Both the position numbers and the translations under genes were made by a program. Shown here in pieces: positions 34,930 through 49,370 of a stretch of 64,000 bases of DNA (the first letter of the stretch is position 1; each line of letters starts with the position of its first letter). The notes under the pieces were generated by a model that saw nothing but the letters and a program-made list of their open reading frames with translations, was not told the DNA's origin and ran no database searches. The stretch comes from Paraglaciecola marina (GTDB lineage Bacteria; Pseudomonadota; Gammaproteobacteria; Enterobacterales; Alteromonadaceae). The stretch is from the NCBI RefSeq assembly GCF_004360155.1, contig NZ_SAIS01000001.1:186001-250000 (forward strand), read 5' to 3'.

Positions 34930-37587
34930 ATGTTTACAAATTCAAAATTGACGAAGTCGATTCGTTTAGCTATTGCTGCGGGTGCAGCTTCTACAGTTAT
35001 GACTTTACCTAGTTTGGCTGTTGCTCAAGAAGCTGTTGACGAAGTAGAGAAAATTTCAATAACGGGTTCTCGAATTCAGAGAACAGACTTAGAAGGGTCT
35101 TCACCAGTTATTTCTATTACGGCCGCAGATATCAAACTTGAAGGTGATTTTACTGTAGCTGACGCTTTGCGTAGCAGTTCATTGAACTCGTTTGGTTCAT
35201 TCTCTGAACGTTCAGGTAGTTCAGCTCAATCTCAAGCGACAATTAACTTAAGAGGGGCGGGCTCTCGACGTACTTTAGTTCTATTGAACGGCCGTCGTTT
35301 CCCAGGTTCTCCTACGCTAGGTGGTGCATCTGCTAACTTAAATGCGATTCCATTTGCTGCTGTTGAACGTATTGACATCATGACGGAAGGCGCCTCAGCT
35401 GTATATGGTTCAGATGCCATGGCTGGTGTTGTAAACGTTATACTAAAAGAAAACTTCGAAGGCTTAACTATTAGTGGAGGTGTTGGGCATCGTACAAACG
35501 ATGAAGGCACTACATCAAAAGAGTTCTCTATTGTTGGCGGTTTATCAAACGACAAAGGCAACATTACCTTCGCTTTCGATCATCAGGAGCGTAAAGGTAT
35601 TTCAGATGGCGCACGTGATTACACAAAAGCTAAAGCATCTGACCTAAATGGTGACGGTGTTATTCAGTATGAAGAAACAAGCGGTTATTCTTTCTACGGT
35701 GCAAATATAGTTACACCTGATGGAGACTTATTAGCATCTCCTCTTTGTGGAGATTTAATTTCCGAATATGGCGATGCCTTTATTGAAGCAAATGCTGATA
35801 ATGCATGGGGCCCAGGTTCAACTGGTTGTTTCTATGGTTACGCTAACGTTTCATATAATACAGCCTCAATCGACCGTAATACTCTATACGTAAACTCTAA
35901 CTATGAGATAACTGACGATATCGAATGGTTTGGTCAAGCAATGTTTGTTCAAAACTCTTCATTCGGTCGTTACGCTCCGCCTGCCGCTCCATGGTATGCC
36001 GTTCCTGTTTCTAGTGATCATAACCCTTTTGATGAAGAAGTATTTGGTTATTTCCGTTGGGTTGATATTGGTACACGTGATGGTAATACAGATGATTACA
36101 ACCAAGATTATACCACTGGTTTTAGAGGTAACCTTGATTGGAATGATGCGTCTTGGGAAGTGTATTTCCACAACAACGTAGCAGATAATAAGCAAGTGGG
36201 TGAGTATTACCTAAGTTATGGTGGTTTAGCATATAACGAAGCTAACGGTATCGATTTAGGTAGTGAAGAAGGTGTTGCCAACATGAGTGCAACTACTTTA
36301 ACTAGTTCGAAGTCTACCTTTAATCAGTTGTATGCTGGTATAGGTTTTGACATGTTCGAGTTAAATGGCGGAATTGTGCAGCATTATTTTGGTGCTGAAT
36401 TTATGGAACAAACCTATGCTGATATTTATGATGCACAATCAGCTGCTGGCCTAATTGGTGGTTCGGCTGGTAACAGTGCAGCCGGTGAACGTGATATATC
36501 TTCTTTGTTCTTTGAATCAGTATTACCTGTAACAGATGACGTAGAAGTTAACATTGCTGTTCGTTACGATGACTACTCTGATTTTGGTTCAAACGTTTCT
36601 CCTTCTGCAAAAGTTAGATGGGAAGTGATGGAAGGCGTAGTATTAAGAGCGTCTTACTCTGAATCTTTCCGTGCACCTGGTCTTGATGAGTTAAATGCCG
36701 CAACTACCTTTAGTGCTGAAAGTGCTACAGATTACCAACAGTGTGCTGAAAATGGTATTGAGCCTGTAGACTGTACATCAGCTCAGTATGATACTTATTA
36801 TCAATCTAATCCTGACTTAGGCGCAGAAACTTCTGACTATGTTAATTTAGGTGCAGTTTGGGATGTCACAGATGAGTTTGGTATTAAGTTAGATTACTTT
36901 AAGCTTTCTATAGACAACGTAATCCAAACTAAATCAGTGAACTCTTTACTACTAGATGAAGCTGCTGGTAAAATCACTGCATTTGATGCTGATGCTGACA
37001 TATCTGAAGAAACGTTTTATTTAAAACGTTTAAATGGTGCTGATGGTGGTCGTTTAGTAGAAGCCGGTACTGGTTACTTTAACGGCGAAGGTTTCGAAAT
37101 TGAAGGTATCGATCTAACCTTTACTGGTATGGTTGAAACTGAGTTTGGTGACTTCCGCTTCAACAACGTTAACAGTATTATCTTATCTTACGACCAAGAA
37201 CTTGGTGGTGTTGTAGTCGATACTGCTGGTTGGTCTGGACAGCCAGAATTTAAGTCTGTTGCGACTTTAGCTTGGTCATTAGGCGATCACTCTGTAGCTT
37301 GGAACCTGACTTATACTGATAGTACTACGGAAGCCGAAGTATTAACTGACCCTGATGATAATGCATTGACTGATGGTGTTTGGGAAACTTCAGGTAAGTT
37401 AGATAGCTGGTTGATTCATAACCTTACTTATTCTTATAATGCAGGTGAGTACGGTACTGTATCATTTACAGTGAATAACTTAACTGATGAAGATCCTGTA
37501 TTGTCTTCATCTGGAACTTGGGATAATGCTGACCTTTATAATAACTTTGGTCGAGATATCCGAGTTAACTATCAAATTAGTTTCTAA
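34930..37587 (+). CDS. TonB-dependent outer-membrane receptor (Oar-like)
   Basis: A TonB-gated outer-membrane transporter of 885 residues, ligand unknown. ATG 34930 follows AGGGAGA. The signal peptide is residues 1-33 (LAIAAGAASTVMTLPSLAVAQ). A TonB-box-like segment (VEKISITGSRI) precedes the plug domain (about 45-165: INLRGAGSRRTLVLLNGRRFPG, GASAVYGSDAMAGVVNVIL). The 22-strand-type barrel ends NYQISF, with terminal Phe as needed for BAM. Residues 238-249 form an EF-hand-like calcium loop (DLNGDGVIQYEE), and two cysteine pairs suggest disulfide-bonded loops. Genes for a methyltransferase, a sulfotransferase and a hydroxylase follow on the same strand after a terminator. Confidence 0.93.
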   Translation: MFTNSKLTKSIRLAIAAGAASTVMTLPSLAVAQEAVDEVEKISITGSRIQRTDLEGSSPVISITAADIKLEGDFTVADALRSSSLNSFGSFSERSGSSAQSQATINLRGAGSRRTLVLLNGRRFPGSPTLGGASANLNAIPFAAVERIDIMTEGASAVYGSDAMAGVVNVILKENFEGLTISGGVGHRTNDEGTTSKEFSIVGGLSNDKGNITFAFDHQERKGISDGARDYTKAKASDLNGDGVIQYEETSGYSFYGANIVTPDGDLLASPLCGDLISEYGDAFIEANADNAWGPGSTGCFYGYANVSYNTASIDRNTLYVNSNYEITDDIEWFGQAMFVQNSSFGRYAPPAAPWYAVPVSSDHNPFDEEVFGYFRWVDIGTRDGNTDDYNQDYTTGFRGNLDWNDASWEVYFHNNVADNKQVGEYYLSYGGLAYNEANGIDLGSEEGVANMSATTLTSSKSTFNQLYAGIGFDMFELNGGIVQHYFGAEFMEQTYADIYDAQSAAGLIGGSAGNSAAGERDISSLFFESVLPVTDDVEVNIAVRYDDYSDFGSNVSPSAKVRWEVMEGVVLRASYSESFRAPGLDELNAATTFSAESATDYQQCAENGIEPVDCTSAQYDTYYQSNPDLGAETSDYVNLGAVWDVTDEFGIKLDYFKLSIDNVIQTKSVNSLLLDEAAGKITAFDADADISEETFYLKRLNGADGGRLVEAGTGYFNGEGFEIEGIDLTFTGMVETEFGDFRFNNVNSIILSYDQELGGVVVDTAGWSGQPEFKSVATLAWSLGDHSVAWNLTYTDSTTEAEVLTDPDDNALTDGVWETSGKLDSWLIHNLTYSYNAGEYGTVSFTVNNLTDEDPVLSSSGTWDNADLYNNFGRDIRVNYQISF

Positions 37588-37616: not shown

Positions 37617-37648
37617 AAAAAGTCCGATTTACATCGGACTTTTTTTTG
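37617..37648 (+). terminator. terminator after the TonB receptor gene
   Basis: Stem AAAAAGTCCGAT / ATCGGACTTTTT with a TTAC loop and an eight-T tract, 30 bases after the stop. The methyltransferase starts 27 bases further on, so its expression may come from read-through or from its own promoter. Confidence 0.9.
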
Positions 37649-37674
37649 TCTTCTATTTGAGTGGATTAGATTGG

Positions 37675-38580
37675 ATGAGTGATTATTGGAGTCAATACTG
37701 GAAACAAGGCCATTTAACCTCCTTTGGAGAAGAGATTAAGGGAAACTATCAGGGCTTATTAGCTGATACTTGGAAGGCCTTTTTTAAAAATAATGATGAT
37801 ACTGCAAGTATTCTGGATATTGGCACGGGCAACGGAGCTTTATTAGCGCTGGCTAGAGAGGCCAATAAGAATACCAACTTATTTGGGATTGATAGTGCAA
37901 CTCTGAGTATTACACAGGAGCTTGCTGTTGATCCTCAAATGAAATTTTTTTCAAATATACAAGCAGAAAGTCTACCTTTTAATGATGCTAAATTCGATGT
38001 AGGCGTTAGTCAATTTGGTATTGAGTATTCAAATCTTACTTTAGCCATACCAGAGCTAAGCAGAGTGTTGAAGTCTGGAGCAAAATTTCAGTTTGTTTTA
38101 CACGATAGCCAGTCGAGTATTGTAAAGCCTAATAATCTAATTTTGAAAGCTGCTCATGAATTAAATGCTCAGGAAGGGGCGTTAACAACAATGAAACGTA
38201 TGATTCAGCAAATCGGTTCGCATGGAGATAGTTCCAAAGGAGCTGACGTTGAAAGAGTTAAGTTGAATCAATTGATTGGAGAGCTAGTGGCTAAAAATAG
38301 ACAGGGTATTTGGGGGACTAATTTCCCATCATTCTTAAAGTATGTAATGTCTAAAAATTGGGGAGTAGAGAAACGTCTTGAAATGCTAAGTCTATTCAAA
38401 AAAGAATTACTTGGGCAAGTTGAGCGTTTAACTGATTTAATTGATGCTTCATTAAATGAAAAAAAATACCAGCTACTTACAGATCTATGTGCAGACAGCT
38501 CACTTGAGGTTTCTGAGTTTGCTTTGTTAAACGAACATGGGAATATAATTGCAAGGAAAGTTAATGGCTTCAAAAGGTAG
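37675..38580 (+). CDS. class I SAM-dependent methyltransferase
   Basis: A cytoplasmic methyltransferase of 301 residues, substrate unknown. The SAM-binding loop is ILDIGTGNGALLALA near residue 50, followed by FGIDSA and the post-I acidic pattern; AESLPFNDAKFDVGVSQFGIEY matches motifs II-III of the UbiE/type-11 group. ATG 37675 (MSDYWSQYWKQGHLTSFG) is preferred over TTG 37657; the ribosome site is poor either way. The C-terminal 110 residues are an all-helical extension not typical of the minimal domain. Its 3' end overlaps the sulfotransferase start by 17 bases. Confidence 0.85.
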   Translation: MSDYWSQYWKQGHLTSFGEEIKGNYQGLLADTWKAFFKNNDDTASILDIGTGNGALLALAREANKNTNLFGIDSATLSITQELAVDPQMKFFSNIQAESLPFNDAKFDVGVSQFGIEYSNLTLAIPELSRVLKSGAKFQFVLHDSQSSIVKPNNLILKAAHELNAQEGALTTMKRMIQQIGSHGDSSKGADVERVKLNQLIGELVAKNRQGIWGTNFPSFLKYVMSKNWGVEKRLEMLSLFKKELLGQVERLTDLIDASLNEKKYQLLTDLCADSSLEVSEFALLNEHGNIIARKVNGFKR

Positions 38581-39583
38581 GTCTTTAATCGATAGGCCTT
38601 TAATTATTCTATCTGCACCGAGGGCAGGTAGTACACTTTTGTTTGAAGCTTTAGCGAAGCACCCCAATTTATGGAGTATTGGTGGTGAAAGTCACGCGTT
38701 GATTGAGCATATTCCAGAGTTATCTACATTGAAACGAGGGTATGTGTCGAATAGGTTAGAAAAAATTGATGCTAAAAGTGAAGTCATCAGTGTTTTACAC
38801 AATAAATTTTTACATCAAAGTATTAACCATAATGGTGATAAATATACTTTAGAAAATGGAGTTATTAGGTTACTCGAAAAAACCCCTAAAAACGCATTGA
38901 GGGTTAATTTTTTAAATGAAGTTTTTCCAGATGCCAAGTTTGTTTATTTGGCACGTGATCCTCTAGAAAATATTAGTAGTATTTTGGATGCCTGGCGTTC
39001 TAGACGGTTTGTTACCTATCCCGATTTACCTATGTGGCCGAAAAATCAATGGTCGTTATTATTGAGTGATAACTGGAAAGATCATATAGGTAGTTCATTA
39101 GTTGAGATTGCAACACATCAATGGAGCAATGCTAATAAAAGTATTATAGATTCTTTAGAAAAAATAGACTTAAATAGAGTGACTACTGTTTGCTACCAAG
39201 ATCTCGTAAATACACCTAATTCCACTTTAAATAAAATTTATGAGTTTGCTGATTTAGAGTTAATGTCAGATAACACTAGTATGACGAGTACACTTCCCTT
39301 GTCACGATATACTCTTACTACTCCCCAAGCAGATAAGTGGCTTAAAAATATAACTGATCTTAGTAAGGTTAAATCACAGATTGAGAATGGCTTAAAACCG
39401 GTTAATAAATGGTTGAGTGAAAATGGTTTAGAACCATTTTTAAGTGATATTTCCACACGTTTTTCGGCTGAAAAATTGAGTAGTATTGATAGTGGTTCGG
39501 TAGAATCTAGACAGTCAAGAAATGAAATTTGTGCATGTGGCTCCGGAAAAAAGTTTAAATATTGCCATGGTAGATTAAGTTAA
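38564..39583 (+). CDS. sulfotransferase with C-terminal SEC-C zinc motif
   Basis: A 339-residue PAPS-dependent sulfotransferase-like protein. The 5'-phosphosulfate loop is LSAPRAGSTLLFEAL (residues 16-30) and the 3'-phosphate segment is FVYLARDPLENISSILDAWRSRR. The last residues form a SEC-C motif with C323, C325, C334 and H335 (CACGSGKKFKYCHG), the zinc module found at the end of SecA. Start ATG 38564 lies after AAGGAAAG within the methyltransferase 3' end. The next gene, 15 bases on, carries the same C-terminal motif. Acceptor unknown; protein tyrosine is one possibility. Confidence 0.87.
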   Translation: MASKGRSLIDRPLIILSAPRAGSTLLFEALAKHPNLWSIGGESHALIEHIPELSTLKRGYVSNRLEKIDAKSEVISVLHNKFLHQSINHNGDKYTLENGVIRLLEKTPKNALRVNFLNEVFPDAKFVYLARDPLENISSILDAWRSRRFVTYPDLPMWPKNQWSLLLSDNWKDHIGSSLVEIATHQWSNANKSIIDSLEKIDLNRVTTVCYQDLVNTPNSTLNKIYEFADLELMSDNTSMTSTLPLSRYTLTTPQADKWLKNITDLSKVKSQIENGLKPVNKWLSENGLEPFLSDISTRFSAEKLSSIDSGSVESRQSRNEICACGSGKKFKYCHGRLS

Positions 39584-39598
39584 AAAAAGGAGTAGGTA

Positions 39599-40678
39599 AT
39601 GAAGTTAGCGCAGGAATTTATCCAGCTTCCTATTTTGTTTGATGCAGAAAAGCTCAAAGCAGAGGTAAACGCTATTCCCAGAAGTCATTGGATTGCTCAT
39701 CATGAAGGGTTTAAAGGTAACTTCTCTATACCACTAGTATCAGTTGGCGGTGGTAATAACAACGAATTTAAAGGTGAAATGGCCTGCACTCAGGTTTTAA
39801 AAGCTAGCCCATACTTAATGCAGGTTATTGGTAGTTTTAATGAGGTTATTGGTCGCTCTAGGTTAATGGGGTTGGAGCCTGGGTGTGAAGTGCCATTGCA
39901 CTCAGATATAAATTATCATTGGTATAAAAGAGTACGTATTCATGTACCTATAATTACTAACCCAAAAGTCATATTTCACTGTGGTGATCAGCAAGTAAAT
40001 ATGCAAAGTGGTGAAGCTTGGATTTTTGATTCTTGGAAATATCACACAGTTAAAAATGATAGCGATGTTTTTAGGGTACACTTGGTTATTGATATTACAG
40101 GGTCTTCTAAATTTTGGGATGTTGTTAAACAAGGTCGAGTACCTTGGGACCTAGAGTATAACAAAAACTTTGGCGTGACTCATTTTGAAGGTGGAACGAA
40201 GCAGCAAGTCATGACAGAAGTGTATAATTCTCCACTTGTCATGTCCCCCGGTGAAGTGGATTATTTAGCTAATGAGTTAATACAAGAAATTCAAATTGAT
40301 GATGTAGGCAAAGAATCCGATGCAGCTCAAATGATTGAGAAAATAACTCGGTTTTGTCAGGATTGGCGCTGCTTGTGGAGCCAGTACGGATTAAATCGTA
40401 AAGGTTGGCCACACTATCATGCACTTCGTCAAGCGGCTTATGAGGGGGTTATGAAATATGACTCAACAGTACTTTTGTCTAATGGAACACCTGCTCCTCG
40501 CATGTTTTTGCATTGCATCATCGACTCGGTGCTGAATGTCGAGGTTGAGTCGAGCTTTAATGTAAACCAAGATATAGAAATACCAAATAGCAAAGTTGAT
40601 AAACCCATTTCTAGAAATGCTTTGTGTCCATGTGGCTCAGGTAAAAAATATAAATATTGTCATGGACATATTAGTTGA
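39599..40678 (+). CDS. aspartyl/asparaginyl beta-hydroxylase-like enzyme with C-terminal SEC-C motif
   Basis: An Fe(II)/2-oxoglutarate dioxygenase of the AspH family (359 residues). The N-terminal 170 residues form the cupin: PGCEVPLHSDINYHWYKRVRIHVPI supplies H101 (and D103), FDSWKYHTV supplies H149, and R159 (FRVHLVID) would bind 2-oxoglutarate. A middle region of about 150 residues is unassigned. The C-terminus is a SEC-C motif: C343, C345, C354, H355. A strong AAAAAGGAG precedes the ATG. It is co-transcribed with the SEC-C sulfotransferase and converges on the TPR-sulfotransferase. Confidence 0.87.
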   Translation: MKLAQEFIQLPILFDAEKLKAEVNAIPRSHWIAHHEGFKGNFSIPLVSVGGGNNNEFKGEMACTQVLKASPYLMQVIGSFNEVIGRSRLMGLEPGCEVPLHSDINYHWYKRVRIHVPIITNPKVIFHCGDQQVNMQSGEAWIFDSWKYHTVKNDSDVFRVHLVIDITGSSKFWDVVKQGRVPWDLEYNKNFGVTHFEGGTKQQVMTEVYNSPLVMSPGEVDYLANELIQEIQIDDVGKESDAAQMIEKITRFCQDWRCLWSQYGLNRKGWPHYHALRQAAYEGVMKYDSTVLLSNGTPAPRMFLHCIIDSVLNVEVESSFNVNQDIEIPNSKVDKPISRNALCPCGSGKKYKYCHGHIS

Positions 40679-40689
40679 TAGCTCCCTCC

Positions 40690-42252
40690 TTAAGTAATTT
40701 TTAGATTGGATATAATGGATGCATAAGGCTCCATTAACTCCCGATATGGTTCACTAGTATTAATTGATTTTGTAGACATTGGTTGTCTTACTTGGCTTGA
40801 ACTAGGGGTTAATACTGGCCTTTTAGACTTGTGGAAATTCAAGCAAGACTCTTGAAAATCTAACTCACAATAGTTCAGAAGGTCTCTTATGTTTTTTTCT
40901 GGTTGTGTTACTAGCTCTTCATAACTTTGATGATATATTTTTTCTCCAAAACATGATGTCCAGTGATTCATTAAGTTGTAGTAACCTTGCATATAACAAC
41001 TGATATCTTCAATTTTGTAACTAAAGTCATTTCCAGAACTAAAGTGTTGTTTAAAAACGCTAAAAGCGTTATCCAAAGGGGTTCGAATTAGGTTTATAAT
41101 TTTAGCTTTAGGAAATAATTTAAGAATTAAACCCAGGTGTAAGAAGTTTGTTGGGTTTTTATCTATAAAAAAGGTACATGGACGATCAATATAGTTAGAT
41201 GCTTGTTTTATATAATTCGATGCTAATTGTTGTCTAATTGTTTCCGGCATATTGGTGAGGTTATTGGCATAATTTCCGTTAAGAGATAAGGGGATTGCTG
41301 TTCTTTCTATAAAAGGGAGTTCGTCCGTTGCTATAACCTGATTATGGCTAGATAAAATCTGCTCCACAAGTGTTGTTCCTGAGCGAGGCATGCCAATTAC
41401 AAAAATTGGATTAACTACTTCTTCATTTGTACATATATCTGTATATGTAGCCATGGTTTTTAGTATATCTTCTACAAGTTTAGTAAATGCTAATTTACTA
41501 AATTTTCGGTTTAAACCTATATTAGAGTTGCCTTCTTTTATCAACTCGAAGGCGAGTTTGAAGTTTTGCTGCTTATCATAATTGTTACCCATAGCTAATT
41601 GGGTTAAACCGTAATTTTTAGTGTCTTTTTGACAGTCACTACTCTTAAGTTTATTTTGTATTTCTAATACTTGGGTTGTTGTAAATTTGTAATTCTTTAA
41701 ATCTGCAAGGCTCCAATAACCATAGCCAGATTGAGCTTGGGTTCTGTTTATAAATGTGTTGTAACATTGAGCTGCTTTCGTAAAGTTACCTTTAGCTTTA
41801 TATGCGTGTCCTAAGTTTAGAAAAGCAAATTCATCTTCAAACTCTTGTTCTATACAAGCTTCTAATTCAGATATTGATTCTGCAATATGACCTATTCTAA
41901 GTAATGATAATGCATAGCGGTAATGTAGATTTAAATCATCTTGTTTCAATGTTTTTAATTTGACTAAAACCTCAATTATTTTAAAGTATAGCTCTTGTTT
42001 TTCGAATAGGATTAGTAATTTATCTAATATAGAATACTCGTTAGGCGCATGCTCAAGTGCTAGGCATAGGGTTTCATTTGCTTGAAAAAATTTGAGTTCA
42101 GCAAATTCTAGTTGGGACTTAACAATTAATGCGTCCGGTAATAGAGGACTTTTTTTTATTACTTTTCTGAGTGCTAAATGAGCGGAGCTAAGTTTACCAT
42201 CTCGTATATACTGTTCAGCTTCTGTTAACAGACGTTTAAATCTTTCGTTCAA
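40690..42252 (-). CDS. TPR-repeat sulfotransferase family protein
   Basis: A 520-residue two-domain protein. Residues 1-250 are helical TPR-type repeats (for example AFLNLGHAYKAKGNFTKAAQCYNTFI). Residues 280-520 are a sulfotransferase domain with the PAPS loop FVIGMPRSGTTLVEQILSSH (P-loop 286-294) and the 3'-phosphate segment IINLIRTPLDNAFSVFKQHF. Proteins of this build are common beside TonB receptors in Alteromonadales and Xanthomonadales, but their acceptor is not established to my knowledge. It shares a 110-base divergent promoter region with the TPR-2OG oxygenase and ends 11 bases from the hydroxylase. Confidence 0.88.
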   Translation of the reverse strand: MNERFKRLLTEAEQYIRDGKLSSAHLALRKVIKKSPLLPDALIVKSQLEFAELKFFQANETLCLALEHAPNEYSILDKLLILFEKQELYFKIIEVLVKLKTLKQDDLNLHYRYALSLLRIGHIAESISELEACIEQEFEDEFAFLNLGHAYKAKGNFTKAAQCYNTFINRTQAQSGYGYWSLADLKNYKFTTTQVLEIQNKLKSSDCQKDTKNYGLTQLAMGNNYDKQQNFKLAFELIKEGNSNIGLNRKFSKLAFTKLVEDILKTMATYTDICTNEEVVNPIFVIGMPRSGTTLVEQILSSHNQVIATDELPFIERTAIPLSLNGNYANNLTNMPETIRQQLASNYIKQASNYIDRPCTFFIDKNPTNFLHLGLILKLFPKAKIINLIRTPLDNAFSVFKQHFSSGNDFSYKIEDISCYMQGYYNLMNHWTSCFGEKIYHQSYEELVTQPEKNIRDLLNYCELDFQESCLNFHKSKRPVLTPSSSQVRQPMSTKSINTSEPYRELMEPYASIISNLKIT

Positions 42253-42362: not shown

Positions 42363-44174
42363 ATGTTAACTAATCAAGCATCATTACAAAGTAAGTTAAA
42401 TTTAGCGATGCAAAAAATGCATCAAGGTCAATATCAACAAGCTTTGGTAGTGTTTTCACAACTTGAAGAATCAGGTATGAAAGATTTTCGTCTATTTCTT
42501 ACTATAGGTTCTGCATACCAAAGACTAAAGCAAGATATTAAAGCTCTAGAATATTTTAAAAAGTCACTATCTTTAAATGGCGAACAAGCAGAACTACAAT
42601 TCATTGTGGGTAAAATGTTTAAAAAAATAGGAGAACTTAAACAAGGGATTGCTCATCTAGAGGTGGCTACCAAATTAGAATCAAGTAATGTTAATTATCT
42701 CCAAGAGCTAGGATTTATAAGGTTGATGAATAAGGACTTTCAAATTGCATTATCAATTTTTTTGCAAACTGTAAAATCAAACTCACATAAAACTTTAGCT
42801 CTACTAGGAATTGCTCGTGCTTACGCTGGATTAGGAAATGAAATTGAAAGAATTAAATATATAGGGTTAGCAGAACTGTCAGACCCTAATCATCCAATGG
42901 TAATAAATGATAAGGCTAGGTTGTTAAGTGAGCAGGGCGAATATGTTGAGTCTAAAGGTTACTTTAAGAAATATTTAGAGCAGAGACCCTCCAATGATGA
43001 GGGCTATGAAAATTTGGCTTTGATTGAGCTACAATTGAAAAATCCACAGGGAGCTCTTGATATTATTGATGCAGGGCTGAGTCGATTACCAAATAGTAGG
43101 TTGTTGCATAAATTTAAATCCTCTTTATCTTTTGAAATGGGTCAAGAAAATTATTTAGGCAATTATCAGCAAATTACAAGAAATAAAATGCCAATCAATC
43201 TTCACACAGATTTTATACAAGCTTTAGTGAAGTCTGGTAACTTTACAGCTGCAGAAGCTGAATTTGACTGGTTGGTTAAAAAGGCTCCCCCTAGTATAAA
43301 TTTGCATGCTCTTTGGATGAGTATTCAAGAAAAACAACAGAATTACGAAGTAATATTAGACTTTTATCAAAAGCTAGGTACTGAGTTAAAAAGGCTACCA
43401 AACTCCGTATTAGAGATTTTGACAAGAACCTATTTTGCTCTAGGAAGCTTTAAGTTAAGTATAGATACTGTATCAGAGCTAGTGCTAAGAGAACCTAATA
43501 ATCAATATTTTTGGGCGTTATATACTACGTCATTACGTTTATTAAGAGATGAACGTTATCATGAGCTATGTAATTTTAGTAAGTATGTTCAGTCTAGAGA
43601 GTTAATCTTGCCAAATAGGTTTACATGTATTGAAGATTTTAACTCAGAATTAAAGGTAGCATTACAAACATTACACGTAACTAAGGAGCATCCTTTAGAG
43701 CAATCTTTAATATCAGGTACTCAAACACCAGGGGAGTTACTTAATAGGCCTATTCCTATTATCAAAGAACTTAATAAAGCTTTGAGACTGACCGCAGAAC
43801 AAGTGTTTTCTAATTTACCTAAGAACTTACCTAAGCCTTTGCTGCAGATGAAAAAAGAGTTTGAATTTTCTGCTTCTTGGTCTGTAAATTTGAAGAGTAG
43901 TGGCTACCATAAATCCCATGTTCATAGTAAGGGGTATTTTAGTAGTGCCTATTACGTGTCGGTCCCTAAAGACCTAAATCATAGTAAGCGCGCAGGGTGG
44001 TTATATCTCGGTAAGCCTGAAGTTGTTTCAACTGTTGAATTGAAAGCCGAAAAGTGGGTAAAACCAGAACCTGGAAAACTAGTTTTATTCCCTTCATTCA
44101 TGTGGCATGGAACTGAGCCATTCAAAAGTATTGATAACAGGCTGACAGTAGCTTTTGATATTTTACCTAAATGA
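42363..44174 (+). CDS. TPR protein with C-terminal 2OG-Fe(II) oxygenase domain
   Basis: A 603-residue protein. About 480 residues of TPR repeats (for example LLALGIARAYAGLGNEIERIKYI) precede a 2OG-FeII_Oxy_5-type (TIGR02466-like) dioxygenase domain. There SHVHSKGYFSSAYYVSVP supplies H519 and H521, FMWHGTEPF supplies H582 and NRLTVAFDI supplies R593. The putative iron and 2-oxoglutarate ligands are therefore intact. The TPR part presumably recruits a protein substrate. It is divergent from the TPR-sulfotransferase and lies 240 bases before the ttpC/exbB operon. Substrate unknown. Confidence 0.86.
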   Translation: MLTNQASLQSKLNLAMQKMHQGQYQQALVVFSQLEESGMKDFRLFLTIGSAYQRLKQDIKALEYFKKSLSLNGEQAELQFIVGKMFKKIGELKQGIAHLEVATKLESSNVNYLQELGFIRLMNKDFQIALSIFLQTVKSNSHKTLALLGIARAYAGLGNEIERIKYIGLAELSDPNHPMVINDKARLLSEQGEYVESKGYFKKYLEQRPSNDEGYENLALIELQLKNPQGALDIIDAGLSRLPNSRLLHKFKSSLSFEMGQENYLGNYQQITRNKMPINLHTDFIQALVKSGNFTAAEAEFDWLVKKAPPSINLHALWMSIQEKQQNYEVILDFYQKLGTELKRLPNSVLEILTRTYFALGSFKLSIDTVSELVLREPNNQYFWALYTTSLRLLRDERYHELCNFSKYVQSRELILPNRFTCIEDFNSELKVALQTLHVTKEHPLEQSLISGTQTPGELLNRPIPIIKELNKALRLTAEQVFSNLPKNLPKPLLQMKKEFEFSASWSVNLKSSGYHKSHVHSKGYFSSAYYVSVPKDLNHSKRAGWLYLGKPEVVSTVELKAEKWVKPEPGKLVLFPSFMWHGTEPFKSIDNRLTVAFDILPK

Positions 44175-44288: not shown

Positions 44289-44411
44289 TCGTACGTCTTA
44301 GTTTTCTATTTATAGAATGCTAAGCCCCTTAAATTATAGAGCTTAAAAGCCCCTTATCCACAAATTTCAAAGTGTGAAAAGGATTCAAAAAAAGAAAATT
44401 GGTTGGGAATT

Positions 44412-45185
44412 ATGTCCAAAATGAGCAAGAGAAACCTTATTGCTTCTGCCGTCGTTGGTGCTATTGCACTCGGTAGCAGCGCTGTTGTCTCTGCAGATCC
44501 GTTAAATGATCTTCATAAAGAAGAAGCAAAAATTCATACGGCTGCAGCGAAATCCCAAGAGAAAATCAACAACCTGTACGAGCAGTCACAGGAATTATTT
44601 GTTGAATATCGTGGAATTGTAGACGAAACAGAAAACTTGAAAGTATATAACGATTACGTTGCAACCTTAGTTGCGGATCAACAACGTGGAATCGATTCTC
44701 TTCAAACTCAGATTGATGGTATCGATGGCATTAAGCGCGGTATCGTACCTTTGATGTTCAGAATGATTGATAGTCTAGAGCAGTTTATTGATCTAGATGT
44801 TCCAATCAACCTAGAAGAGCGTAAAGAACGTGTTGAACGTTTACGTGATGTTATGGCTAACTCAAACGTTACTACATCAGAGCAATTCAGACAGGTAATA
44901 GAATCCTATCAAATTGAAAATGCTTACGGTAAAAAAATAACGTCATATCAAGGGACATTTGATTATCAAGGCACTGAAGTGACAGTTGATTTCTTCAACT
45001 TAGGTAGAACTGCATTAATGGCTTTGTCTCTTGATCAGAAATCAGCTTGGATCTGGGATAACGATGCCAGAGCATGGGAAGTACTTGATGATTCATATGT
45101 TAGTTCAGTTGTATACGCTGTGCGTATGGCTAACGCACTAGTACCACCAGACCTTCTTGAACTACCAATTAAAGCAGCGGAGTAA
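44412..45185 (+). CDS. DUF3450 periplasmic protein of the TonB2-type operon
   Basis: A 257-residue exported protein. The signal peptide is residues 1-30 (NLIASAVVGAIALGSSAVVSA), followed by a long coiled coil (about 30-100) and a conserved C-terminal domain (DYQGTEVTVDFFNLGRTALMALSLDQKSAWIWD). DUF3450 genes open the Vibrio tonB2 locus in the same order. It is thought to be a periplasmic partner of the ExbB-like complex. ATG 44412 was chosen; TTG 44403 is less likely. Confidence 0.9.
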   Translation: MSKMSKRNLIASAVVGAIALGSSAVVSADPLNDLHKEEAKIHTAAAKSQEKINNLYEQSQELFVEYRGIVDETENLKVYNDYVATLVADQQRGIDSLQTQIDGIDGIKRGIVPLMFRMIDSLEQFIDLDVPINLEERKERVERLRDVMANSNVTTSEQFRQVIESYQIENAYGKKITSYQGTFDYQGTEVTVDFFNLGRTALMALSLDQKSAWIWDNDARAWEVLDDSYVSSVVYAVRMANALVPPDLLELPIKAAE

Positions 45186-45190
45186 TATTG

Positions 45191-46543
45191 ATGAAAACTG
45201 TATTTAAATCTATATTTGCTGCTGCATCTATTTCTCTTTTAGCAACTTCTGCACAAGCAGCTAGTACTCTTGAAGAGTTATTAGAAGATGTTAAGAAAAA
45301 TCGTGTTTCTGAAGCACAAATCAATAAACAAAGAGAAGCTGAATTTCAATCTGAGCGTGCTGATAAGCAAGCATTAGTAAGAAAAGCGCAAGCTGACCTT
45401 AAAGCAGAAAAAGCTCGTGGTGATGCTTTAGCTAAGCAATTTTCAGATAATGAAGTTGCTCTCGCTGAAAAAGAGGCTGAGCTTGTTCAAGCAACAGGTA
45501 CTTTAGGTGAAATGTTTGGTGTTGTTCGTCAAGCATCTGCTGAAGCTTACGGTCAAATTTCAACTTCTATTGTAAGTGCAGAGTTCCCAGGACGTGGTGA
45601 GTTTTTAAAGCGTATGTCTGAGGAATCTAAAGGTCTACCTAATATTAAAGAGTTAGAAGACCTTTGGTTTGCATTGCAAACAGAAATGACTGAGTCTGGT
45701 CAAGTTTCTAAATTTACTACTGAAGTTGTTAACTTAGATGGTGGTTCTCAACAGCAAGAAGTTTTACGTGTTGGTACGTTTAACTTAGTTGGTGAACAAG
45801 GCTATTTAGTTTATGACGACCAGAATAAAATGGTTCAACCTCTTGGTCGCCAACCTGATGGTTACCTAGTTAGTTCTGCTTTAGAATTATTAAACGCTAG
45901 TTCAGGTTTAGTTCCTTTCTATGCAGATCCATCTAGCGGTGCAATACTTGGCTTATTGAAAGAAAAAGCGACTATGATGGAGCGTTACCATGCTGGTGGA
46001 TACGTAGGTTATGTAATTACTTTTATGCTAGCGATTGGTTTACTAATTGGTTTGTACAAAATAGTTACATTAACAATCATTGGTGGCAAAATCCGTTCGC
46101 AAGCTAAAAACGTTGCAAGTCCTTCTACTGGAAACCCTCTTGGTCGTATTCTTCAGGTTTATCAAGATAATAAATCTCAAGATGTTGAAACGTTAGAGTT
46201 AAAACTAGATGAAGCTATCATGCGCGAATTACCAAAAATCGATAGCGGAATAAACGTTATTAAGATCTTTGCTGCAATCGCACCTCTGTTAGGTCTTTTA
46301 GGTACTGTATTAGGTATGATTTTGACCTTCCAACAAATTACTTTGTTCGGTACAGGTGACCCTAAACTAATGGCTGGTAGTATTTCGATGGCATTGGTAA
46401 CAACCGCTCAAGGTATTATCGCTGCATTACCTCTGTTGTTAACTCACAGTATCGTAGCTGGACGTAGTAAATCTATTACGCACATCTTAGATGAGCAAGC
46501 TGCAGGCATAGTAGCTGCGCACGCTGAGTCGGAGAAAGCTTAA
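45191..46543 (+). CDS. ttpC: TtpC-like MotA/TolQ/ExbB proton channel protein
   Basis: A 450-residue inner-membrane protein needed with ExbB-ExbD in Vibrio TonB2 systems. It has a signal peptide (1-24), a periplasmic coiled coil (about 30-100), a domain with EFPGRGEFLKRM, then three spans of the MotA/TolQ/ExbB domain (about 275-300, 355-385, 400-425) with IAPLLGLLGTVLGMILTF and MAGSISMALVTTAQGIIAALP. ATG 45191 follows a DUF3450 stop by three bases. It is followed by a second ExbB with one base between. Confidence 0.92.
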   Translation: MKTVFKSIFAAASISLLATSAQAASTLEELLEDVKKNRVSEAQINKQREAEFQSERADKQALVRKAQADLKAEKARGDALAKQFSDNEVALAEKEAELVQATGTLGEMFGVVRQASAEAYGQISTSIVSAEFPGRGEFLKRMSEESKGLPNIKELEDLWFALQTEMTESGQVSKFTTEVVNLDGGSQQQEVLRVGTFNLVGEQGYLVYDDQNKMVQPLGRQPDGYLVSSALELLNASSGLVPFYADPSSGAILGLLKEKATMMERYHAGGYVGYVITFMLAIGLLIGLYKIVTLTIIGGKIRSQAKNVASPSTGNPLGRILQVYQDNKSQDVETLELKLDEAIMRELPKIDSGINVIKIFAAIAPLLGLLGTVLGMILTFQQITLFGTGDPKLMAGSISMALVTTAQGIIAALPLLLTHSIVAGRSKSITHILDEQAAGIVAAHAESEKA

Positions 46544-46544
46544 G

Positions 46545-47069
46545 ATGTTATACCTGATAGAACTATGGGAGTCTGTCAGGGACTTTATCGCTGCCGGCGG
46601 TGACGTTCTTTACGTTGTCGCCTTAACGCTCTTTCTTATGTGGGTTTTAATGATTGAGCGTTATTGGTATTTAGCTTCTGTGTATCCAAAAATTAGAGAT
46701 GAAATTATTTCTAATTGGGATGCACGTAGTGATACTACTTCATGGTATGCGCATAGAATCCGTGACACATGGATTTCACAAGCATCCGATGGCTTAAGCG
46801 CAAGAATGATGTTAATTAAAATTCTTGTTGCTATGTGCCCTTTAATTGGCCTTTTAGGAACAGTTACTGGCATGATCGGTGTGTTTGAAACTATGGCGAC
46901 TCAGGGGACAAGTAACCCTCGTCTAATGGCCGGAGGTATTTCTATGGCAACTATTCCAACTATGGCTGGAATGGTAGCGGCATTGTCTGGTGTATTCTTT
47001 AGTTCTCGATTAGAAGCTAAAGTTAAAATTGCCAGAGCTAAGCTGATAGACAGCCTGCCCCATCATTAA
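46545..47069 (+). CDS. exbB: biopolymer transporter ExbB
   Basis: Proton channel subunit energising TonB. The 174 residues have three spans and the signature CPLIGLLGTVTGMIGVFETMATQGTSNPRLMAGGISMATIPTMAGMVAALSG. It is short, as ExbB2 of Vibrio is. It follows ttpC immediately. Confidence 0.95.
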   Translation: MLYLIELWESVRDFIAAGGDVLYVVALTLFLMWVLMIERYWYLASVYPKIRDEIISNWDARSDTTSWYAHRIRDTWISQASDGLSARMMLIKILVAMCPLIGLLGTVTGMIGVFETMATQGTSNPRLMAGGISMATIPTMAGMVAALSGVFFSSRLEAKVKIARAKLIDSLPHH

Positions 47070-47081
47070 AGAGAGGATCTT

Positions 47082-47483
47082 ATGGGTCGAAAAATTAGAG
47101 TAGAAGACGAAGATGCAGAAATTGATATGACACCAATGCTTGACATAGTGTTTATCATGCTGATTTTCTTCATCGTAACTACCGTTTTTGTAAAAGAAGC
47201 GGGTATTGATGTAAACAAGCCAAACGGTACTCAATCTATCATGCCTAAAAACGCAAACATTTTTATCGCAGTAACAGCTGATGAAAAAGTGTGGATTGAT
47301 AAGCGTGAAGTAGATATTGATAGCGTTCGAGCTAACTTAGAACGTTTGATGGCAGAGCAGCCTTCTGATGTAATTATAATTCAAGCTGACAAAGAAGCCG
47401 AGCACGGTGTAGTTGTCGAAGTGATGGATCAAATTAAATCAGCTGGTATTGATCGAATCTCAATAGCAACGGCAGGTAGTTAA
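47082..47483 (+). CDS. exbD: biopolymer transporter ExbD
   Basis: Single-span partner of ExbB. The 133 residues include the membrane segment with the protonatable Asp (IDMTPMLDIVFIMLIFFIVTTVFV) and the periplasmic domain ending DQIKSAGIDRISIAT. An AGAGAGGA ribosome site precedes the ATG. Confidence 0.95.
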   Translation: MGRKIRVEDEDAEIDMTPMLDIVFIMLIFFIVTTVFVKEAGIDVNKPNGTQSIMPKNANIFIAVTADEKVWIDKREVDIDSVRANLERLMAEQPSDVIIIQADKEAEHGVVVEVMDQIKSAGIDRISIATAGS

Positions 47484-47484
47484 T

Positions 47485-48096
47485 ATGGGTCGATTAATAG
47501 TTTCTATATTAGTAGGGGCCGCGATAGCGTTTGGGCTTTTTGTATTGATGGCTAAACTCATATCTAATACATCTATGCCACCCAAAAAACAGACTGATTC
47601 GCCAATTATCGATATTGTTATGGCAACACCTGACGATGCGACGCAGTTGAGACAGCGAGTTCCGCCGCCTCCGCCGCCGCCGCCGAAGCAACCACCTAAA
47701 ATTGAACCGGTTGAACCTGATGTAGCTGACGTTAATACTGATGGACTTGGTTTTAGTATGCCGAGTGTAGATGTTGGTGGAGCCTCAGTGAATATTGGAG
47801 GTGTTGGAGCAATGCGTGATGGTGAAGCGACACCAATCGTCCGTATTGAACCTAAATATCCTGTACAGGCTGCTCGTGATGGTAAAGAAGGCTGGGTAAA
47901 ACTGTCTTTTACTATTAATGAAGTCGGTGGGGTTGAAGATGTTAAGGTTATTGAAGCCGACCCTAAACGTGTTTTCGACAGAGAAGCGCGTAGGGCCTTA
48001 GGTAAGTGGAAATACAAGCCTAAGATTGAAGACGGTAAACCAATGAAGCAATTCGGCCTAACTGTGCAATTAGACTTTAAGTTGGATCAATCATAA
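47485..48096 (+). CDS. tonB: energy transducer TonB
   Basis: Transmits the proton gradient to outer-membrane receptors. The 203 residues have an N-terminal span (about 4-25), a periplasmic proline stretch (RVPPPPPPPPKQPPKIEP, encoded by a CCG-rich run at 47663-47690), a glycine-rich linker and the C-terminal TonB domain (PIVRIEPKYPVQAARDGKEGWVKLSFTIN... ARRALGKWKYKP). It is short, like TonB2. The stop shares an A with the start of the TPR gene. Confidence 0.95.
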   Translation: MGRLIVSILVGAAIAFGLFVLMAKLISNTSMPPKKQTDSPIIDIVMATPDDATQLRQRVPPPPPPPPKQPPKIEPVEPDVADVNTDGLGFSMPSVDVGGASVNIGGVGAMRDGEATPIVRIEPKYPVQAARDGKEGWVKLSFTINEVGGVEDVKVIEADPKRVFDREARRALGKWKYKPKIEDGKPMKQFGLTVQLDFKLDQS

Positions 48097-49370
48097 TGAA
48101 GAAATATTTAAAACATTTGTGTGCGGTTTCAGCTCTAACTGTGGCTGTGGTTTCTCCTAGTGTTGTTTACGCGCAAGCTAAAGCAAAGCCGGTTGGACCA
48201 ATAGCTTGTCCAGACTATAAGCGAGGGCCTACTAATATACCTAGCCAAAAGGTAGGTAAAAAAGTAGGTCAAGCTTTAGAGTTTTATAATAACGATCAAG
48301 TAACTGAAGCATTAGACGTTTTATATGAAATTGAAACGTCTGATGGATTTGACCGAGCGTTTACTGATAGATTTATAGGTAACTTACTTGCCACGCAAAA
48401 TGGTCAAGGTAAGAAGTCTATAGAGTTTTTATCAAAAGCAGTGGCGTCAAATGAGTTAAATGACTCCGATCAAGTGGGGACTATTAAGTTAATTGCAGAC
48501 TTGAGTCTTCAAGAAGAAGAGTATGACGACGCTATTAAATGGTATAACCAGTGGATGGACGTTACTTGTAAAGAAGATTTTGATGCTTATTTCAGAATAT
48601 CTAACGCTTATTATCAAACTGGAAAGTTTGCTGAGATTATTGAGCCTATCAACAAAGCTATTAGCTTAGCTGATAAGCCAAATAAAACAGCCTATGCCCT
48701 GAAGATGACTTCTTATTACAATCGTAAAATGTATAAAGAAACTATCGCAGTTCAAGAAGATATTGTTAGGTTGTTCGCTGAAGATAAAGCGCAGTGGACG
48801 CAATTAGGATTCTTTTATTTATTAGTAGAAGACAATAAGAAAGCTTTATCTACTTTCGAAGTTGCTTATGGGCAAGGTTACTTGACTAAGGCAGCTGAGA
48901 TTAAAGCTTTAAGTCAACTATATACAATGAATGATATTCCAATCAAAGCCGCCAAGATACTTGAAGAGCATATTGAGTCTGGGCTAATTGAAAAAGATGC
49001 AAAAATGCTAACAAGCATAGCTACGTCTTATCAACAAGCTAAAGAATTTAAAGAAGCTGCTAGTTATTATGAACAGTCAGCTCTTTTATCTTCTGACCCT
49101 GATATGTATCAGAAACAAGGAGTTATGCTTTATATTGCTGAAAGATATAACGAATCTTTAGTTGCCTTACAGAAAGCCTTAGATGGTGGTTCTGATAAGG
49201 TTGGGCGTATCCATTTGACTATGATGGAAGCGAACTTTTATAAAGGTAGTTTCAAAACAGCTTATAAACATGTGTTAGAGGCTAAAAAGGATAAATCAAC
49301 GGCTCGTAGTGCGAGAAGTTGGGAACCTTATATAAAAGAAAAAGCCAAAAACCGTGGTATAACACTTTAG
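48096..49370 (+). CDS. TPR protein of the TonB2-type operon
   Basis: A 424-residue exported protein with signal peptide 1-28 (VSALTVAVVSPSVVYAQA) and TPR repeats through the rest. A TPR protein directly after tonB2 is the conserved final gene of the Vibrio locus. It probably acts in the periplasm as a scaffold for the energy-transducing complex. A terminator follows the stop. Confidence 0.9.
   Translation: MKKYLKHLCAVSALTVAVVSPSVVYAQAKAKPVGPIACPDYKRGPTNIPSQKVGKKVGQALEFYNNDQVTEALDVLYEIETSDGFDRAFTDRFIGNLLATQNGQGKKSIEFLSKAVASNELNDSDQVGTIKLIADLSLQEEEYDDAIKWYNQWMDVTCKEDFDAYFRISNAYYQTGKFAEIIEPINKAISLADKPNKTAYALKMTSYYNRKMYKETIAVQEDIVRLFAEDKAQWTQLGFFYLLVEDNKKALSTFEVAYGQGYLTKAAEIKALSQLYTMNDIPIKAAKILEEHIESGLIEKDAKMLTSIATSYQQAKEFKEAASYYEQSALLSSDPDMYQKQGVMLYIAERYNESLVALQKALDGGSDKVGRIHLTMMEANFYKGSFKTAYKHVLEAKKDKSTARSARSWEPYIKEKAKNRGITL

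Follow-up and report, generated by a model that had tools for sequence, protein, structure and literature searches.

Modification of an outer-membrane protein by the product of a neighbouring gene, before Sec export, is familiar from the autotransporter heptosyltransferases (Aah with AIDA-I, TibC with TibA) and from HMW1C, although the modification there is glycosylation and the enzymes are different. AspH and tyrosylprotein sulfotransferase of humans and other animals resemble the enzymes described below in fold (Z about 15 and about 17, respectively), but they belong to the eukaryotic secretory pathway; animal AspH, moreover, has a two-histidine iron site, in contrast to the HxD...H found here. 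For bacteria, the relevant sections of PMC6637879 give RaxST–RaxX of Xanthomonas as the only documented case of tyrosine sulfation as of 2019. There, too, a sulfotransferase gene lies beside that of an exported protein, on which the enzyme acts before secretion. On the other hand, RaxX is a small peptide that leaves by type I export, and the four-gene cluster, as set out in those sections, has no hydroxylase, SEC-C motif or receptor. SecA, YecA and YchJ, finally, all end in a CxCx8C(H/C) domain, which a flexible linker joins to the rest of the protein. The sections dealing with the SecA tail in two papers (eLife 48385; PMC8076867) describe its binding to SecB and to the ribosome; the former describes 1ozb as a complex of a SecA peptide with SecB, and the latter proposes that more proteins with SecA-like tails may be accessory Sec components. 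In the present case, by contrast, the tails are found on two catalytic enzymes rather than on a motor or chaperone, and any binding by them is putative.

The window (the whole stretch of 64,000 nucleotides of Paraglaciecola marina DNA that was analysed) contains two such enzyme genes side by side on the forward strand. The first (38564..39583), whose start overlaps the end of a methyltransferase gene, encodes a PAPS sulfotransferase (ST), recognized by Pfam (Sulfotransfer_3, PF13469, 4.8e-26), invariant residues, an AlphaFold model and structure matches. Its C-terminal SEC-C (SecA-like metal-binding) motif (39518..39574, forward strand; residues 319-337) scores 30.7 bits against the curated PF02810 cut-off of 20.4, and the metal motif, with the ligands, is CACGSGKKFKYCH (39530-39568). 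The second gene (39599..40678), with AGGAG just 5' of it, encodes an AspH-family Fe(II)/2OG oxygenase with a helical C-terminal region and a SEC-C tail, as indicated by Pfam (Asp_Arg_Hydrox, PF05118, 5.4e-16; 59.3 bits against a cut-off of 22.6), alignment and AlphaFold. Here the SEC-C motif (40613..40666, forward strand; residues 339-356) reaches 36.4 bits against the cut-off of 20.4, with the metal motif and its ligands in CPCGSGKKYKYCH (40625-40663).

Both tails thus exceed the Pfam cut-off and fit CxCx8C(H/C), and they are identical at 15 of their last 21 residues, which bears out the claim of an earlier note on this DNA that the two proteins end in SEC-C. Its further claim that the folds are unrelated also holds, the AlphaFold models matching PAPS sulfotransferases in one case and AspH-type 2OG oxygenases in the other. 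Since the genome (4.64 Mb) has just eight SEC-C places, one of them on a SecA-looking frame of 905 aa, it is very unlikely that two SEC-C genes became adjacent by chance (about 0.01 such pairs expected, by our own estimate). The motifs of ST and AspH end in CH, those at the other six places in CC. In both AlphaFold models a confident core is followed by a low-confidence linker and then by an ordered tail, and the best matches of the tails are SecA peptides, 1ozb included, with near-identical sequence. SecB and APS kinase are both found in the genome.

The catalytic residues are intact. In a set of relatives comprising 80 of 145 loci, the iron and 2OG ligands of AspH (His101, Asp103, His149 and Arg159) are invariant in 66 rows, made up of the window and 65 of the 80 loci (left out were L088, L090, L093, L094, L100, L103, L108, L124, L137, L138, L140, L142, L144, L147 and L149). 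P19, R20, G22, S23, T24, R131 and S139 of ST, which we take to be the 5' and 3' PAPS-binding motifs, are invariant in 41 rows. Because each model ties several enzymes, the folds do not settle whether the substrate is a protein or a small molecule: ST matches heparan N-sulfotransferase (Z 18.2) and tyrosylprotein sulfotransferase (Z 17.2), and AspH matches a nucleoside hydroxylase, proline hydroxylases and AspH itself. The PF05118 family also includes hydroxylases of lipids and free amino acids.

Upstream of the pair lies the proposed substrate, a TonB-dependent receptor (34930..37587, forward strand; Pfam Plug 9.5e-18, beta-barrel 2.1e-32), followed by a SAM methyltransferase (37657..38580, start probably 37675, forward strand; Methyltransf_11, 1.4e-10) that comes after the receptor in 20 of the 20 receptor-ortholog loci fetched. 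Convergent with the pair is a TPR-sulfotransferase (TPR-ST; 40690..42252, reverse strand; Sulfotransfer_3 2e-40 plus TPR), which adjoins AspH in 29 of 31 loci of the window's clade and is split over two frames in L108. Together, ST, AspH and TPR-ST make up one module. Next come a TPR protein with a C-terminal 2OG-Fe(II) oxygenase domain (42363..44174, forward strand; 2OG-FeII_Oxy_5, 9.6e-22), found in five of six Alteromonas-type loci, and the Ton system of the receptor locus (44403..49370, forward strand), which is conserved beside receptor orthologs. The latter comprises DUF3450 (6.6e-85), two ExbB-type proteins (MotA_ExbB 6.2e-28), ExbD, TonB and a Pfam-identified TPR protein, the second ExbB, ExbD and TonB frames being named by eye. 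Among the nine window proteins scanned with Pfam, from the receptor to the TPR gene (the ORF list started at 100 aa), there was no exporter like the type I exporter that accompanies the short precursor peptide in the RaxX–RaxST system.

How closely is the module tied to the receptor? All of the six Alteromonas/Aliiglaciecola loci show the gene order receptor–methyltransferase–ST–AspH–TPR-ST, and in Alteromonas-type genomes the module is embedded in a receptor–methyltransferase–Ton locus. In genomes of the Shewanella type the module is not linked to the receptor, but the same receptor ortholog is usually found elsewhere. A receptor occurs within 5 kb of 38 of the 80 loci, one of these (L095) being a different, siderophore-like receptor; among the 42 loci with none at that distance are some of the Shewanella and Lysobacter/Rhodanobacter types, and many are truncated by the end of a contig. 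The receptor ortholog is present in 22 of 25 pair-positive genomes (in two as two pieces of one frame) versus 4 of 25 pair-negative ones (Fisher p 5e-7), and in 15 of 16 versus 4 of 15 of the Shewanella-type subset (p 2e-4), both p values being too small since the genomes are related. The pair-positive set excludes the genomes of L072 and L074-L076, where the receptor is adjacent, and of L108; the pair-negative genomes, 15 of a Shewanella-type genus and 10 of the window's family, were hand-picked before their receptor state was known. The exceptions are three pair-positive genomes, two of which are MAGs, where no complete receptor ortholog occurs, and the four pair-negative genomes that have it. 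The tie to a TonB receptor put forward in the earlier note therefore stands as far as synteny and co-occurrence of unlinked genes are concerned, but not for two MAGs without a receptor ortholog. Loci with no such receptor near the pair, which that note had named as counter-evidence, do exist in Shewanella, Thalassotalea and Colwellia; most of these genomes, however, have the receptor elsewhere, and the interpretation as a whole is partly supported.

What would such a module do? The reading that we favour, tentatively and with somewhat less than even confidence, is that ST, AspH and TPR-ST form a receptor-dedicated protein-modification module, the SEC-C tails recruiting enzymes to precursors before export. 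In the cytoplasm, the TonB-dependent receptor, neighbouring or cognate, would be hydroxylated by AspH and sulfated by ST and TPR-ST while still an unfolded precursor, unless the substrate is an envelope protein closely tied to it; the modified precursor would then be exported by Sec and assembled. The tails, on flexible linkers as in SecA, would carry both enzymes to precursors held by SecB or bound to the ribosome; in other lineages the same recruitment may be achieved by enzyme fusion or by TPR domains. That the substrate is a protein, and the receptor in particular, that the modification precedes export and that the tails dock on SecB or the ribosome is what we infer. Searches of one open-licence library brought up no report linking a receptor with a sulfotransferase and AspH, or SEC-C with a sulfotransferase. 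The locus suggests an undescribed route of chemical receptor modification, probably before export. If so, many alpha- and gammaproteobacteria would have enzymes dedicated to modifying their TonB receptors, through which nutrients enter and to which phages and bacteriocins bind, and the sulfation of bacterial proteins would extend past the single case given for 2019 in the sections of PMC6637879 noted above. SecA-like tails on proteins of unknown function would gain a concrete role in bringing enzymes to outgoing proteins, and the cassettes, with their natural tail-less pairs and fusions, offer ready genetic tests.

Alternatively, the enzymes could decorate a small molecule or a polymer of the cell surface, for instance a siderophore-like ligand whose finished form the receptor imports. 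The nearest solved structures, which include CurM, an N-sulfotransferase, a proline hydroxylase and a nucleoside-antibiotic hydroxylase, agree with this, as does the methyltransferase adjoining the receptor. However, Pfam scans of nine window proteins, from the receptor to the TPR gene, found no NRPS, PKS or glycosyltransferase that would build a scaffold. TPR and SEC-C, both used repeatedly, are protein-binding parts, and elsewhere in the genome the plain sulfotransferases lie in polysaccharide-like clusters (by eye), the TPR type beside receptors, all of which makes this alternative rather unlikely.

The distribution of the tails in relatives bears on the recruitment that we favour. Among 28 loci with an intact adjacent ST/AspH pair, both proteins are tailed in 24, neither in four, and none is mixed; the window is one more tailed pair. 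Leaving aside the four tail-less loci, the full CxCx8C(H/C) is present in 25 of 25 aligned ST rows and 23 of 23 aligned AspH rows, after linkers of 26 to 71 residues. On a tree of 37 rows, built from the window together with 24 of these 28 loci and 12 of 25 fusions, the states of the two tails are identical, with at least three changes, two of them forced by well-supported branches. The tails have thus changed together at least twice, the state in Psychrosphaera/Colwellia being either a loss or an older lack, although significance is out of reach with just two independent contrasts. Most relatives have no SEC-C, which was flagged in none of the 49 loci outside the window's clade among the 80 kept. 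Since it is missing there and in four of the 28 intact pairs, SEC-C cannot be required for the chemistry, and we read it as a putative lineage-specific docking tail of a wider receptor-dedicated system.

In relatives without SEC-C, that system takes the form of receptor cassettes in which TPR-sulfotransferases are accompanied by several AspH proteins and by AspH–ST fusions. A TonB receptor adjoins, or lies one gene away from, 21 of 26 sampled TPR-sulfotransferases versus none of 10 other sulfotransferases, the two classes being split by score and frame length, with one of the others (L211) a marginal TPR match; the five exceptions are L184, L198, L199, L200 and L204, of which L198 and L200 have a receptor a few genes away (by eye). 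AspH–ST fusions occur in 25 of the 80 loci, none flagged with SEC-C, and argue for a common substrate of both enzymes. It could also be that the tails simply join ST and AspH, directly or on a scaffold outside Sec, coupling hydroxylation and sulfation as the split-gene counterpart of the fusions, as the all-or-none occurrence of the tails would also allow. This is doubtful, however: in four intact pairs the enzymes are neither tailed nor fused, a sulfotransferase–AspH fusion of reverse order (L054) is a further tailed enzyme, and two Thiohalobacter-like MAGs have an AspH–SEC-C protein, sister to the window's clade, with neither an ST nor a receptor ortholog, so that the tail of AspH did not depend on that ST as a partner. 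With the L054 fusion as query, relatives were found in six of 369 class genomes: in four of the regions (L222, L224-L226) genes for TPR-ST and AspH accompany a receptor, L223 has TPR-ST and AspH but no receptor, and L221 is known from broken matches only; SEC-C was flagged in none of these regions.

SEC-C could also be a mobile module, for metal binding or stability, that has no specific meaning here and is present on both genes by ancestry. This would agree with its occurrence on unrelated proteins, including six more in this genome, and with the small number of independent contrasts, but is improbable given the concerted changes and a full metal motif kept despite very different linker lengths. 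A particular form of the favoured reading, in which AspH hydroxylates a receptor side chain and ST then sulfates the hydroxyl so formed, leaving hydroxylated Asp/Asn (or Pro) with a sulfate ester, with both enzymes delivered by SecA-type tails, Sec targeting as the modification platform and the AspH–ST fusions as the one-chain form of the two-step reaction, is quite improbable.

Where might the receptor be modified? Seven columns separate the 22 pair-positive from the four pair-negative orthologs, and five of them lie in a D-x-N/D-G-D-G loop (residues 238-245 of the window receptor). Part of this loop is deleted in three close relatives among the pair-negative genomes (mutual identity 95-97%). 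As a candidate hydroxylation site the loop does not follow the pair cleanly, being kept in the fourth pair-negative receptor and missing in two Thalassotalea pair-positive ones, and it is only a lead. With L081, L095 and L201 left out, a looser form of the motif occurs in 23 of 41 AspH-linked and 7 of 26 TPR-ST-linked receptors, and the strict form in 6 of 41 and 3 of 26. An acidic-Tyr motif at the receptor C-terminus was dropped, since pair-negative orthologs have it too. A role in defence was likewise discarded, the PADLOC matches of ST and AspH covering the tail only (E2 models) and the enzyme cores having none, as was a phage origin: in PHROG, AspH matches nothing, ST has a single weak match whose function is unknown, and the TPR-oxygenase matches a 2OG entry.

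Between the receptor and the enzyme genes, a pattern scan found a terminator-like hairpin of 12 pairs (37617..37644, forward strand), which would hold expression of the enzymes under that of the receptor; the same kind of scan gave nine such sites in the region versus 5.8 (sd 2.8) in shuffles.

Each of two adjacent Paraglaciecola marina enzymes does carry the C-terminal SEC-C, a SecA-like metal-binding tail (CxCx8C(H/C)), that the earlier note had claimed for both. In the sulfotransferase (ST, 38564-39583) and the AspH-family 2OG oxygenase (AspH, 39599-40678), Pfam finds SEC-C over its curated cut-off behind Sulfotransfer_3 (4.8e-26) and Asp_Arg_Hydrox (5.4e-16), respectively; over their final 21 residues the two proteins share 15 identical positions. 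The metal motifs lie at 39530-39568 (ST) and 40625-40663 (AspH). There are eight SEC-C places in this genome; these two tails end in CH, the other six in CC. A 499-residue protein on contig C24 (L005:277-1776) has a C-terminal SEC-C as its sole Pfam match. PADLOC models for E2 proteins of ubiquitin-like conjugation match solely the two tails (39518-39574 and 40613-40666), so SEC-C-like tails seem to be terminal on another kind of protein-modifying enzyme.

The ST and AspH tails appear and vanish jointly. Scanning the genome collection for AspH relatives yielded 145, of which 80 were retained. Intact, adjacent ST and AspH genes are found in 28 of these loci, with tails on both proteins in 24, on neither in four (Alteromonas confluentis, Psychrosphaera, Colwellia and Litorilituus) and on one alone in none; the window provides an additional tailed pair. 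In another locus (L108) the ST gene is broken, with its tail codons still in frame, and in two Thiohalobacter-like metagenome-assembled genomes (MAGs; L097 and L098) AspH–SEC-C is present and ST was not seen. On a 37-row tree built without the tail columns, the states of the two tails are identical and need three changes, two of them forced by well-supported branches; the independent contrasts for joint change number only two. The tail-less state is clearly a loss in A. confluentis; in Psychrosphaera and Colwellia it may go back either to a loss or to an earlier absence. A tree of 66 AspH rows places both MAG rows as sister to the clade that includes the window, a position that favors an old AspH tail with later losses. 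The linker varies from 26 to 71 residues across relatives, and the metal motif is retained.

Both enzymes look active from their alignments: H101, D103, H149 and R159 of AspH are invariant across 66 rows, as are the residues of both PAPS motifs of ST across 41. In the AlphaFold models the cores are confident (mean pLDDT 93.3 for ST and 89.0 for AspH), the linker is weaker and the tail is ordered. The ST model matches PAPS sulfotransferases, an N-sulfotransferase (Z 18.2, rmsd 3.8, 245 aligned) being tied with a tyrosylprotein sulfotransferase (Z 17.2, rmsd 4.4, 247 aligned). The AspH model resembles three structures: a nucleoside hydroxylase (Z 16.4, rmsd 2.2, 152 aligned), a proline hydroxylase (Z 16.1, rmsd 2.9, 183 aligned), and an AspH (Z 15.1, rmsd 2.7, 161 aligned). 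Since these matches are nearly equal, the fold informs on chemistry, not on substrate.

What, then, is the substrate? The earlier note had pointed to the upstream TonB-dependent receptor (34930-37587). It precedes a methyltransferase gene whose 3' end overlaps the ST start, and a strong terminator-like hairpin (37617-37644) separates it from the enzyme genes. AspH is followed by a convergent TPR-sulfotransferase (TPR-ST), a TPR-2OG oxygenase and a DUF3450–ExbB–ExbB–ExbD–TonB–TPR set, in which the second ExbB, ExbD and TonB were identified by eye. The tie to the receptor stands in gene content and partly in position: the order receptor–methyltransferase–ST–AspH–TPR-ST, then Ton genes, is kept in all six Alteromonas/Aliiglaciecola loci, but in Shewanella, Thalassotalea, Psychrosphaera and Colwellia-type loci the ST–AspH–TPR-ST module is sited away from the receptor. 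When 50 genomes were searched with a six-row receptor alignment, a full ortholog (at least 1280 bits or, for two genomes, a single frame in two pieces) was found in 22 of the 25 genomes that carry the ST–AspH pair vs. 4 of 25 without it (Shewanella-type genomes: 15/16 vs. 4/15). At all 20 fetched orthologs the receptor is followed by the methyltransferase and then by Ton genes, even in the four pair-negative genomes; thus, receptor, methyltransferase and Ton genes form the core, and ST–AspH–TPR-ST is an add-on. Against the mechanism proposed below stand these four genomes, three with the pair but no full receptor ortholog (two MAGs and one Shewanella), the majority of cassettes, which lack SEC-C, and the L097 and L098 MAGs, perhaps partial, in which neither an ST ortholog (best match 38.7 bits) nor a receptor ortholog (58.9 bits) was found. 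The L097 and L098 MAGs do carry several other sulfotransferase-like genes, of which some lie near one another. Also on the negative side, looking for a receptor site whose state follows the presence of the pair yielded just a weak lead.

Most cassettes do without SEC-C, making the tail one of several solutions: it was flagged in none of the 49 other loci among the 80 retained, including the AspH–ST fusions (25 of 80). Even so, receptor linkage is frequent among these 49 loci. Alphaproteobacteria have receptor–Sulfotransfer_2–AspH–TPR-ST–AspH; Steroidobacter and similar gammaproteobacteria have receptor–TPR-ST–2OG oxygenase–TPR-AspH–AspH/ST fusion–ST-like–AspH. One example of each layout was annotated with Pfam, and the remaining loci were assigned by sequence match. 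In L054 the two enzymes are fused in the opposite order, sulfotransferase–AspH, and this fusion carries SEC-C and adjoins another receptor-like protein; its tail seems to have been acquired separately. Of the 80 loci, 38 have a receptor within 5 kb, and the misses include Shewanella-type, Lysobacter/Rhodanobacter-type and contig-end loci. All five other TPR-sulfotransferases of P. marina directly adjoin a Plug-domain receptor, in a genome with 55 Plug domains per 4.64 Mb; in 12 other genomes of the family, a receptor is adjacent or one gene off for 21 of 26 TPR-sulfotransferases vs. 0 of 10 other sulfotransferases.

The most economical reading is that ST, AspH and TPR-ST modify a protein, either the receptor or an envelope protein tied to it. 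The fusions and the synteny argue for one common substrate, and TPR and SEC-C, being protein-binding parts, favor a protein; the receptor is favored because most genomes with the pair also have it, whatever the pair's location. The SEC-C tails would deliver both enzymes to precursors. This is suggested by analogy to SecA, whose tail, a linker followed by a metal-binding domain, binds both SecB and the ribosome (eLife 48385), by the match of the tails to the SecA peptide of 1ozb (E 1.9e-7 for AspH, 1.1e-6 for ST), and by the SecB gene of P. marina, which also encodes APS kinase. PMC8076867 proposes other proteins with a SecA-like tail as accessory Sec components. A bolder reading has two steps: AspH would hydroxylate a side chain of the receptor precursor, and ST would then sulfate the new hydroxyl.

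Autotransporters glycosylated before export are a parallel case. RaxST sulfates RaxX before export, a reaction that PMC6637879 termed in 2019 the sole documented bacterial tyrosine sulfation. The receptor–ST–AspH system would be a new form of such neighbor-encoded, pre-export protein modification; no report of this link, or of SEC-C on sulfotransferases, was found in the open-licence papers searched.

At two loci (L198 and L200), TPR-sulfotransferases cluster with a TonB receptor, a SapC-like protein and proteins whose GGGTAGW motif by eye resembles that of flavin-dependent tryptophan halogenases, possibly further tailoring enzymes next to receptors. A sulfotransferase at L211:4055-5878, whose gene comes just after that of an exported protein ending in a PEP-CTERM-like sequence, has by eye an N-terminal SEC-C-like CxxC...CC motif, where Pfam reports no SEC-C. 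Other AspH-like genes (L056, L058-L060) have in their vicinity one to three small proteins resembling, by eye, tail-collar/microcystin-dependent proteins.
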